The notes under the pieces: generated by a model | Seen by the model: the letters and a program-made list of their open reading frames with translations, nothing else | What the model was told of the DNA's origin: nothing | Database searches by the model: none | From: Microbacterium testaceum | GTDB lineage: Bacteria; Actinomycetota; Actinomycetes; Actinomycetales; Microbacteriaceae | Assembly (NCBI RefSeq): GCF_006539145.1 | Contig: NZ_BJML01000006.1 | Coordinates: 1 to 64,000 of the forward strand | Direction: 5' to 3' | Length of the DNA stretch: 64,000 bases | Position numbers and translations under genes: made by a program | Shown: piece after piece, positions 1,041 to 61,712 of the stretch | How the letters are laid out: each line of letters starts with the position of its first letter | How positions within the stretch are numbered: position 1 is the first letter of the stretch

Positions 1041-1130
1041 GCGTGCCAAACTCCTGAGAAGTTCACGGGCGTGCGTCCCGAACCGCCGAACACCAACATC
1101 CGTCGTTGACTTCTCAGGAGTTTCGTACGC
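1041..1130. repeat. Inverted-repeat element, AACTCCTGA family, copy 1
   Basis: Core arms AAACTCCTGAGAAGT (1048-1062) and its exact reverse complement (1109-1123) enclose 46 bases. Similarity continues outward as GCGTRCS. The same terminal sequence recurs at 60.04 and 60.23 kb. The element fills the gap between the convergent MBL hydrolase and ptsH, next to the fru operon terminator, so it could also act as a terminator for the hydrolase gene. Confidence 0.75.
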
Positions 1131-59164: not shown

Positions 59165-59983
59165 TCAGCGCGGCAGGTCGATGGCGCCGGTCTGCACGAG
59201 CTGCACCTCCCGCACCTCGCGGCCCATGAGACGGTGAGCCAGGCGCAGGAAATCGTCGGCGGATGAGCCGGTGGCCTCGTAGCGGGCGGTGGGCACGGCA
59301 TCCGGAGTCGCGAGAAGGTCACGCGACACGAGCTGGCGGTACACGTCTTTCGCGGTCTCGCTGTCGCTCGAGACCAGGCTCACCTCGGAGCCCATCACGT
59401 AACTGATGGCGCCCTCGAGGAACGGGTAGTGCGTGCAGCCGAGCACGAGAGTGTCGACGCCGGCGTGACGGAGCGGCGCGAGGTACCGTTCGGCCGTGGC
59501 GAGCACGTCGGGTGAGTCGGTGACGCCGGCCTCGACGAACTCGACGAAGCGCGGGCACGCCTCGGCGAACACCGTCAGGCGCTCGTTGACTTCGAGCATG
59601 TCCTGGTAGGCGCGCGAACCGATCGTGCCGACGGTGCCGATCACACCGATGCGGCCGTTGCGGGTGGTCGACATGGCGGTGCGGACGGCGGGGCCGATGA
59701 CCTCGACCACCGGGACGTCGTAGCGCTCGCGCGCGTCGCGGAGCATCGCGGCCGAGGCGGTGTTGCACGCGATCACGAGCATCTTCACGCCCTGTTCGAC
59801 GAGGGTGTCGAGCACCTCGAGCGCGTATTTGCGGACGTCGGCGATGGGTTTGGGGCCGTAGGGCGAGCGGGCGGTGTCGCCGATGTAGAGGATGGACTCG
59901 CGCGGCAGCTGCTGAGAGACGGCCCGGGCGACGGTGAGTCCGCCGACCCCTGAGTCGAAGATCCCGATCGGCGCGTCGTTCAT
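59165..59983 (-). CDS. murI: Glutamate racemase
   Basis: An enzyme of 272 aa that makes D-glutamate for peptidoglycan. The start [17 protein letters not shown] and the two catalytic Cys segments, [11 protein letters not shown] (near 72) and [13 protein letters not shown] (near 184), are intact. TAGGCT lies 8 bases before the ATG. It heads the murI-rph-rdgB group and is divergent from the nicotinate phosphoribosyltransferase gene across a 403-base gap filled with repeats. Confidence 0.97.
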
Positions 59984-60037
59984 AGGGCTCCAGCCTACCG
60001 GGAGGGGGTGGGACGGGCTGGTCTGCGGCGTCGCGTG

Positions 60038-60123
60038 GTACCGAACTCCTGAGAAACGAGGCGAAGAGCCGCCATGTGCTGCCGTTCGGCCGTCTCACGG
60101 TCGAAAAGTCAGGAGTTTCGCAC
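60038..60123. repeat. Inverted-repeat element, AACTCCTGA family, copy 2
   Basis: Ends GTACCGAACTCCTGA (60038-60052) and the inverse of GTGCGAAACTCCTGA (60109-60123) match at 12 of 15 positions. The interior is related to that of copy 3 in reverse orientation (both contain GCCATG and TGCCGT). It lies upstream of murI. Confidence 0.78.
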
Positions 60124-60230
60124 GACGCGGCGCGGGGGTGGCGCGAGGGTGGCCGGCGGCGCGAGGGTGGCCGGGGACGCGGGTGCGGCGCGCGGGTGGC
60201 CCGGGACGCGGGTGGCCGCGGGCGCGGGGC
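60124..60230. repeat. GC-rich degenerate tandem array between two inverted repeats
   Basis: About six diverged units of roughly 17 bases around GCGCGAGGGTGGCCGG fill the space between copies 2 and 3. The region is almost purely G and C and has no convincing gene. Confidence 0.7.
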
Positions 60231-60317
60231 GTGCGAAACTCCTGAGGAAATCCGACGGTTCGCGGTGCCACGGCATCCATGGCTCGCATCCGCCCCGAAA
60301 GTTCAGGAGTTCGGTAC
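60231..60317. repeat. Inverted-repeat element, AACTCCTGA family, copy 3
   Basis: GTGCGAAACTCCTGA (60231-60245) is the exact inverse of the right end of copy 2, and its right end (60303-60317) is the exact inverse of the left end of copy 2. Copies 2 and 3 are therefore an inverted pair, about 280 bases in all. It ends 70 bases before the start of the phosphoribosyltransferase gene. Confidence 0.78.
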
Positions 60318-60386
60318 GCCGGGCGGCGACTGTCAAGCGCGGGGGTCCGCGCGGGCACGGCCACGGGGCCGCAATATGCTGGCGCC

Positions 60387-61712
60387 ATGAGCCGCAGCAC
60401 CGCCCTGCACACCGACCGTTACGAACTCACGATGCTCGACGCGGCGCTCCGCGACGGCACGGCCTCGCGCCGTTGCGTGTTCGAGGTGTTCGGCCGACGC
60501 CTGTCGGGTGGGCGCCGGTTCGGCGTGGTCGCGGGGACGGGGCGTCTGCTCGAAGCGATCCGGGACTTCCGATTCGGCGACGACGAGCTGCGTTACCTTC
60601 GCGACAACCGGGTGGTGGATGCCACGACCCTCGACTTCCTGGCCGATTACCGGTTCACGGGCTCGGTGACGGGCTACCGCGAGGGCGAGGTCTACTTCCC
60701 CGGCTCTCCCCTGCTCACGATCGAGGGGACATTCGCCGAGGCCGTGCTGCTCGAGACGCTCGCGCTCAGCATCCTGAACTACGACTCCGCCGTCGCCACC
60801 GCGGCCGCCCGCATGAGCGTGGCCGCGGGTGACCGGCCGCTCGCCGAGATGGGTTCGCGTCGCGCGAGCGAGGAGGCCGCTGTCGCAGCCGCTCGCGCGG
60901 CGTACATCGCCGGCTTCTCGGCGACCAGCAATCTCGAGGCCGGCCGTCGCTGGGGCGTGCCGACCATGGGCACGGCTGCTCACGCGTGGACGCTGCTGCA
61001 CGACAGCGAGGAGGACGCGTTCCGCTCTCAGGTCGACGCGCTCGGCGCGGGAACGACCCTGCTCATCGACACCTACGACATCACCGAGGGCGTGAAGACG
61101 GCCGTCCGCGTCGCCGGCACCGATCTGGGCGGGGTGCGCATCGACTCGGGTGACCTGCCGATCGTCGCGGGCGAGGTACGCGCGCTCCTCGACGAGCTGG
61201 ACGCGACGAACACGCGCATCACCGTCACGAGCGACCTCGACGAGTACGCGCTCGCGGCTCTGGCGGCCTCCCCCGTCGACTCGTACGGCGTGGGCACCTC
61301 GGTCGCGACCGGGTCGGGCGTGCCGACCGCGGGGCTCGTCTTCAAGCTCGTGGCGCGCGAGGCCGCCGACGGTTCGTGGGTGGGCGTGGCCAAGGCATCC
61401 GCACAGAAGGCCTCCCACGGCGGGCGCAAGGCCGCCTTCCGCACGCTGGACTCGGGCACGGCGACCTCGGAGCTCGTCGTCGTCAGCGATGGGTTCGAGG
61501 AGCTCTCGACGGCGGCGGAGCACCCCGACGCCCGCGCCCTGCAGGCGATGCTCATGCAGAACGGAGAGGCGGATGCCGGCGCTCTCGGCTCAGCCGGCGT
61601 GCAGGCTGCTCGGGCGCACCATTCGCGCGTCCGCGAGGAGCTCCCCGTTCGCGCGCTCGCGTTGAGCAAGGCCGACCCCGCGCTGCCGACGGAATATCGC
61701 GAGGCGGTCTAG
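60387..61712 (+). CDS. pncB: Nicotinate phosphoribosyltransferase
   Basis: A protein of 441 aa that couples nicotinate to phosphoribosyl pyrophosphate for NAD salvage. Signatures are HTDRYELTMLDAAL at the start, FEVFGRRL, ASEEAAVAAARAAYIAGF near 155 and VRIDSGDLP near 250. TATGCT (60375-60380) is 6 bases before the ATG, so the mRNA is probably leaderless. Confidence 0.94.
   Translation: MSRSTALHTDRYELTMLDAALRDGTASRRCVFEVFGRRLSGGRRFGVVAGTGRLLEAIRDFRFGDDELRYLRDNRVVDATTLDFLADYRFTGSVTGYREGEVYFPGSPLLTIEGTFAEAVLLETLALSILNYDSAVATAAARMSVAAGDRPLAEMGSRRASEEAAVAAARAAYIAGFSATSNLEAGRRWGVPTMGTAAHAWTLLHDSEEDAFRSQVDALGAGTTLLIDTYDITEGVKTAVRVAGTDLGGVRIDSGDLPIVAGEVRALLDELDATNTRITVTSDLDEYALAALAASPVDSYGVGTSVATGSGVPTAGLVFKLVAREAADGSWVGVAKASAQKASHGGRKAAFRTLDSGTATSELVVVSDGFEELSTAAEHPDARALQAMLMQNGEADAGALGSAGVQAARAHHSRVREELPVRALALSKADPALPTEYREAV

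Follow-up and report, generated by a model that had tools for sequence, protein, structure and literature searches.

Paired inverted repeats beside murI of Microbacterium testaceum belong to a dispersed element family that may be served by a homing-type nuclease

Two pairs of inverted repeats, with GC-rich DNA between them, lie in the gap between two divergent genes in a 64,000-nucleotide stretch of the Microbacterium testaceum genome (assembly GCF_006539145.1, contig NZ_BJML01000006.1, positions 1 to 64,000), which is referred to here as the window. The locus raises the question of what such pairs are and how they came to lie there. The original prediction described an inverted duplication of one element, like paired REPs or a composite mobile unit. 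The two neighbouring reading frames carry names taken from that prediction and from general knowledge, and the features are as follows, with strands for the genes.

1042..1129: element copy 1, short form; core 1049-1122 (74 bp)
59165..59983, minus strand: reading frame, left neighbour, which we take to be murI (glutamate racemase)
59990..59997: CCAGCCTA block beside murI, bounding the insertion zone on the left
60037..60124: element copy 2, short form, exact arms; core 60044-60117 (74 bp)
60125..60229: tandem array, GC-rich and degenerate, that separates copies 2 and 3
60230..60318: element copy 3, short form, exact arms; core 60237-60311 (75 bp)
60331..60337: TGTCAAG block towards pncB, bounding the insertion zone on the right
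60387..61712, plus strand: reading frame, right neighbour, presumably pncB (nicotinate phosphoribosyltransferase); ATG start taken at 60387

The family unit has inverted arms of about 17 bases with the core AACTCCTGA and a variable interior. Both 15-base end pairs of the original prediction are exact inverses at the level of letters, 60038-60052 being the reverse complement of 60303-60317 (GTACCGAACTCCTGA) and 60109-60123 that of 60231-60245 (TCAGGAGTTTCGCAC). The motif RAACTCCTGA occurs six times in the window compared with 0.16 expected, and 0 of 100 shuffles got to six. A third arm pair is present at 1048-1123, and this copy 1 sits between convergent genes according to an ORF heuristic. In copy 2, 56 bp separate the nine-letter cores and the arms measure about 17 bp, their limits being drawn from co-variation in 96 elements. 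The interior of copy 1 has a near-identical counterpart in the relative G367 and a similar one at L047, and the interior of copy 3 resembles the murI-gap copies of G367 in a comparison that took in some arm letters. The placement in a divergent gap, with murI on the minus strand to the left and pncB to the right, was also correct. The predicted reverse match of the interiors did not hold, as alignment of the copy 2 interior with the inverse of copy 3 gave p ~0.06 against shuffles and direct alignment ~0.08. With no significant likeness between the interiors, and with each unit being in itself a whole element with palindromic ends, an inverted duplication is unsupported. The GC-rich array was recovered as tandem repeats with periods of 16, 18, 29, and 45 within 60126-60229. 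It lies outside the units, and the gaps of relatives hold G-rich stretches of differing sequence, so the array need not belong to the element and probably is not part of it.

The whole genome (3.59 Mb) contains six exact pairs, and the control gave none. The core AACTCCTGA is present 35 times (22 forward, 13 reverse) vs four for the reversed control. At the 29 loci checked, eight further single arms have a partner that matches in eight of nine letters at the family span, three have one that matches in seven of nine, and for the remaining seven the partner matches in just three to six letters. Judging by the near-matching partners, the elements of this genome appear to form a larger population that has partly decayed.

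The gap was then compared across the 30 nearest murI loci, with that of M. testaceum itself (L278) counted among them, and pairs proved to be gained or lost among relatives. Gap length ranges from 38 to 517 bp. Exact AACTCCTGA pairs are present in seven of the 30 gaps, including two each in this genome and in L281 and one exact plus one imperfect pair each in L283 and L287. One gap holds an exact AACTCCGGA pair (L291), one a degenerate pair recognised by eye (L296), and one a single arm (L282). Pairs with other arms occur in two gaps, L279 and L292 (ACACAACGC..., GCACACCTC...), and these are perhaps further dialects; 18 of the 30 have no recognised pair. Among the 19 relatives' gaps listed of the 30, AGCCTA, which lies within the block beside murI, is present in all 19 and GTCAA of the pncB-side block in 15. 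The murI/pncB gap is a favoured or tolerated insertion zone.

The original prediction of paired inverted-repeat units, apparently mobile, is borne out by their membership in a dispersed family that is also present in related genomes. A scan for exact pairs gave at least 119 loci, and the 80 listed include many Microbacterium, Frigoribacterium, and other Microbacteriaceae, together with scattered matches in unrelated genomes. Exact AACTCCTGA pairs occur in 12 of 149 genomes of the genus at 3-22 copies and in 12 of 299 genomes of the family, where some matches are non-members (G079 with span 79; G153 with span 71 at a contig end). With two mismatches allowed at a 74-bp span, 58 of the 149 genomes match, and the matches listed include tRNA matches (G327, G419); the reversed control gave one in one genome and otherwise 0 among the rows listed. 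Dialects of the arm, such as AACTCCGGA and AACTCCTCA, mostly have both arms altered together and the span kept, among the matches listed. The pattern AACTCC-N62-GGAGTT occurs at 569 places in 82 of the 149 genomes, and the places listed add dialect AACTCCACG and others. Chance or an assembly artefact could account for scattered matches in unrelated genomes, but as an explanation of the family it is scarcely credible, because the reversed control found 0 in all 149 genomes against the 569 places.

G378, which is the most densely populated genome, carries 57 pairs over 3.65 Mb. A motif-free scan of 1.2 Mb of it placed span 74 among the top spans, with 20 pairs where the mean was 5.2, and AACTCCTCAA was the most frequent (10). 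In the same scan, ACAACGGCGG (5) at span 78 is again a 74-bp AACGGCGG core, and spans 32-34 score equally high, as ordinary hairpins would. At spans of 60-100, 12 of the 17 AACTCC/GGAGTT pairs in the scanned 1.2 Mb are at span 74.

The architecture was examined in 101 non-redundant elements from scans that allowed spans of 64-94 or 58-88 bp, after omission of loci with GC below 0.6, elements 25 bp or less from a locus end, and 31 near-duplicates among 132. The core spans 72-75 bp or 84-86 bp in 96 of the 101 (72 bp in one, 73 in eight, 74 in 50, 75 in 13, 84 in two, 85 in 11, and 86 in 11), and the five off-class spans are 64, 79 twice, and 94 twice. The set of 96, from which these five are excluded, may include a few chance matches from other taxa. 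The long and short classes differ by one helical turn, and a palindrome near CCGCGGNATNCCGCGG lies at the centre of the 86-bp form. Co-variation between the arms in the 96 elements was seen at seven positions outside the nine-letter core and one inside, and hardly beyond nine outside, so the unit is taken as 88-90 bp. The consensus of the arm has no GTAG tag, and by inspection no hairpin lies within an arm.

Both murI copies as whole units fold better than shuffles (z -2.2 to -3.3), and many copies lie between convergent genes, as would be expected of structured RNAs or terminator-like hairpins selected in transcripts. However, the murI copies fold well as whole units because their arms pair, the interiors show no folding beyond that of shuffles in 72 short forms (mean z -0.13), and the 24 long forms, whose interiors reach a mean z of -1.38, carry the central palindrome. 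A covariance-model search of 59900-60450 against Rfam returned 0 matches at E up to 1, and two phased lengths would be unexpected for a loop. Selection as RNA is therefore very unlikely.

At three loci, pairs about 1.02 kb apart surround one gene, which is a candidate for the enzyme that serves the family. Searches with tblastn detected homologues beside elements in further lineages including other genera, with weak matches at L156, L164, and L161 and E 7e-6 at L125, in a set biased by loci that were mostly fetched by the element. The gene was absent from the output of gene-neighbour clustering around elements, perhaps through an ORF filter, and was detected by tblastn. Among 30 loci fetched by the protein (the best protein matches, one per genome), an adjacent pair of the same dialect is present in 22 and pairs are present on both sides in 17, in a count that took pairs starting AAC and so missed other dialects; the other eight have no adjacent pair by the same test. 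The control found chance pairs in four of 87 two-kb segments, which lay away from known AACTCC elements and hence measure chance pairs only. Homologues at E<=1e-20 are present in 127 of the 149 genus genomes. The 41 genomes with a close homologue (E<=1e-80) average 8.2 pairs and the 108 others 2.2 (p 9e-7, uncorrected for phylogeny). Fourteen of the 149 genomes, including M. testaceum, have at least three pairs yet no homologue at 1e-57, and one of these (G365) has 17; gene loss with lagging decay of the elements would explain them. In the M. testaceum genome, the close nuclease clade gave 0 matches at 1e-20, and two distant paralogues are present. In nine of 48 partly redundant rows, a reading frame ends in the next arm, where AACTCCTGA gives Asn-Ser and a TGA stop (L120, L218, L092, L220, L219, L041/L221, L164, and L161).

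Pfam matches of the protein are to REase_MTES_1575, DUF559, and AbiEi_4, mostly under their cut-offs, with DUF559 above its cut-off in L107. The winged-helix N-terminus matched PF13338 at E 1.8e-4, below the cut-off of that model, and the AbiEi models of PADLOC at E 7.4e-6. A defence library gave weak matches to AbiEi, DpdF, Hhe, and PDC-S37, NCBIfam gave one very weak match (E 0.027, far under its cut-off), and a profile search matched 3hrl, an endonuclease-like protein, at E 7.9e-6. Residues E203, D230, E240, D242, H247, D256, and D260 are invariant in all 28 aligned proteins, and these acidic and histidine residues are presumed to be catalytic. AlphaFold reached a pLDDT of 38.6 from a single sequence and a mean of 60.9 from a five-row alignment, in which the winged-helix and nuclease parts are mostly at 70-88. 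Foldseek searches with this modest model gave target-normalised TM scores of 0.80 for the catalytic domain of I-Bth0305I (3r3p) and 0.58 for Vsr (1vsr), and no match reached 0.001; the top match by E-value was AbiEi 6y8q (0.014), yet it superposed poorly (TM 0.19/0.26). The protein is taken as an AbiEi-type winged helix joined to a nuclease domain of predicted Vsr/EDxHD fold (REase_MTES_1575/DUF559).

Flanking inverted arms of a separate kind were assigned by eye, from among chance hits, to distant paralogues at L261 and L255 (AACGGCGG) and at L269 and L270 (GAGAACAGG). In a tree of 63 proteins, the dialects CACG (4), CTTC (2), CTGA (4), and AACGGCGG (2) fall in one branch, but CTGA, CGGA, and CTCA recur in separate branches, so that dialect and protein branch appear to agree in part. 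Beside one distant paralogue of M. testaceum (L254, C1:217578-218366), four of the five genomic copies of CCGAATCYGTTGC adjoin the gene, and by eye these arms form inverted pairs about 45 bp apart. The other paralogue has no flanking arm distinguishable from chance.

Evidence of movement comes from G386, in which two elements 1,154,281 bp apart have interiors that are 92% identical over 62 bp. Exact likeness continues for about 10 bp to the left and 8 bp to the right of the core before mismatches begin, the BLAST alignment ends 27 bp to the left and 42 bp to the right of the core, and apart from this the two neighbourhoods are unrelated. As the likeness reaches beyond the arms, the moved unit may exceed the segment from arm to arm. 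No second clear long-distance duplicate was found in G365, G432, or G384, the best candidate in G384 being 76% identical at 0.92 Mb with shuffles of up to 72%, and no empty site at base resolution was found for the G386 duplicate among relatives, which are too diverged. In a non-random sample of 47 neighbouring pairs, interiors are at least 80% identical in 12; among these, the interiors are more alike than the left flanks in 11 of 12 and than the right flanks in all 11 measured, and three flanks still reach 0.80-0.92. At L361 (G432:C1:909000-910100), three tandem elements have identical 79-bp spacers and interiors of 66-80% identity (shuffles reach 74%), and L067 is one further case of an identical spacer with differing interiors. 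Such cases suggest that interiors can be swapped or rewritten faster than their surroundings. The 153-bp spacing of L361 recurs at a second locus, L360. Judged from these alignments, the unit of copying is the element, with perhaps 10-40 bp around it, and it may also be the unit of replacement.

The pairs might alternatively be operators, in which sites of a regulator or nucleoid protein loop about 65 or 76 bp and have spread by ordinary duplication; the binder would perhaps be the AbiEi-type protein itself, repressing its own gene. The sites are inverted and phased, pairs flank the protein's own gene, and some lie in divergent regions, among them murI/pncB and a gap between a LacI-type regulator and a galT-like gene. 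An AbiEi antitoxin is also described, in the available text of one report, as repressing itself through cooperative binding to inverted repeats (PMC7319586). However, of 67 copies placed by the ORF heuristic, 30 are convergent, 17 tandem, and 5 divergent (13 are perhaps inside ORFs and two at locus edges), up to 57 occur per genome, presence is patchy among relatives at one locus, and duplicates have unrelated flanks. Operator pairs are unlikely, although they deserve more weight than any other rival considered here.

MITEs and Correia-type elements are short and non-coding and end in terminal inverted repeats. The present units share such repeats, so that they might be ordinary MITE-like elements moved by some transposase, with the nuclease gene merely a frequent neighbour. 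The dispersed duplicate and the element-bearing genomes without a close nuclease would agree with this. Yet a scan of 96 elements for target-site duplications gave no clear signal, the strongest signals lying inside the arms and one 3-bp signal at offset 12 (13 vs 4.7) appearing among about 150 tests, and pairs of the same dialect flank the nuclease gene on both sides in the 17 of 30 loci. Unlike MITEs and Correia-type elements, the units also have an interior that is not conserved and a fixed, phased span. A MITE-like origin is improbable, more so than operators.

REPIN-RAYT systems, according to the available text of two reports (PMC3116915, PMC3733652), consist of two inverted short repeats around a spacer, extragenic and both dispersed and clustered, and of a cognate enzyme gene flanked by repeats. 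The Microbacterium units are likewise inverted repeats around a spacer, dispersed and, by the ORF heuristic, mostly extragenic, and as in REPtrons the candidate enzyme gene is flanked by repeats. Unlike REPINs, their arms lack the GTAG tag and their two spans lie one helical turn apart, and unlike RAYT the candidate enzyme joins an AbiEi-type winged helix to a Vsr/EDxHD nuclease. A search for RAYT (Y1/HUH, PF01797) gave no match in any of 32 genomes, of which 19 or more bear elements, with a control that was positive in five of 14 well-known genomes. The predicted likeness to paired REPs therefore stands for the layout and fails for the enzyme, and the family is not classed as REPIN-RAYT, though it seemingly works alike.

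Other likenesses concern the protein. The homing endonuclease I-Bth0305I dimerises on a target of nearly 60 bp, according to a review (PMC3943268). The arm pairs, centred 65 or 76 bp apart, offer an analogy to that target, and the modest model shares the catalytic fold and the conserved acidic and histidine residues. Unlike EDxHD homing endonucleases, a family that is mostly phage- and intron-borne, the gene is free-standing with sites numbering up to dozens, and it does not destroy its target, complete pairs being present on both sides in 17 of the 30 loci. The winged-helix N-terminus resembles AbiEi of type IV toxin-antitoxin systems (in a match below cut-off), whereas the C-terminal domain here is a nuclease. 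REase_MTES_1575 (PF18741), which was named from M. testaceum and described within a multidomain HEPN/helicase protein (PMC3710099), belongs to the same family of Vsr-type nuclease domains, and the available part of that description makes no mention of repeats.

These comparisons favour REPIN-like miniature mobile DNA served by a homing-type nuclease, with the murI copies as members, at a probability of about 0.58. The arms would most likely be recognition sites of a dimeric winged-helix/Vsr nuclease. As a dimer, the protein would bind the two arms from the same face of the helix and would cut or nick the element, and repair would then copy the unit to near or distant sites. Because the cognate nuclease clade is absent from this genome, the copies in the murI/pncB gap are probably left over from earlier activity. 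The system is a possible new counterpart of REPIN-RAYT built on a different enzyme; newness is suggested by the failed REPIN-RAYT membership and by the open-licence literature, where a search, mostly of titles and starts of abstracts, found no published account of such nuclease-linked inverted pairs, and an earlier description may exist. A bolder proposal, which must be held tentatively with the odds against it, is a new class of mobile DNA in which a free-standing nuclease of Vsr/EDxHD and winged-helix type copies arm-bounded cassettes and reads its two arms in helical register. In such a class, the interiors would be exchangeable cassettes and each nuclease paralogue would use an arm dialect of its own. 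Among bacteria, REPIN-RAYT serves as the model of tiny replicators that a domesticated enzyme maintains, and a parallel system on an unrelated nuclease would mean that this lifestyle arose more than once. It would also point to what a common but functionally uncharacterised protein family may do, and its nucleases, with their differing arm dialects, would be a natural collection for studies of DNA recognition.

Two minor observations concern individual sets of pairs. A conserved-interior pair was considered as the promoter of the cognate gene and rejected, since it sits between the LacI-type regulator and the galT-like gene, a gene reading taken from translations for L189 and L196 only; in this gap (L189, L196, and listed places in G400, G365, and G384), the pair keeps much of its interior. 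In G378 (L380-L439), further sets of inverted pairs occur at span 67 (CGAGACTGCA 5, CGAAACACCA 4) and at span 74 (TTCAAAACTC 3).
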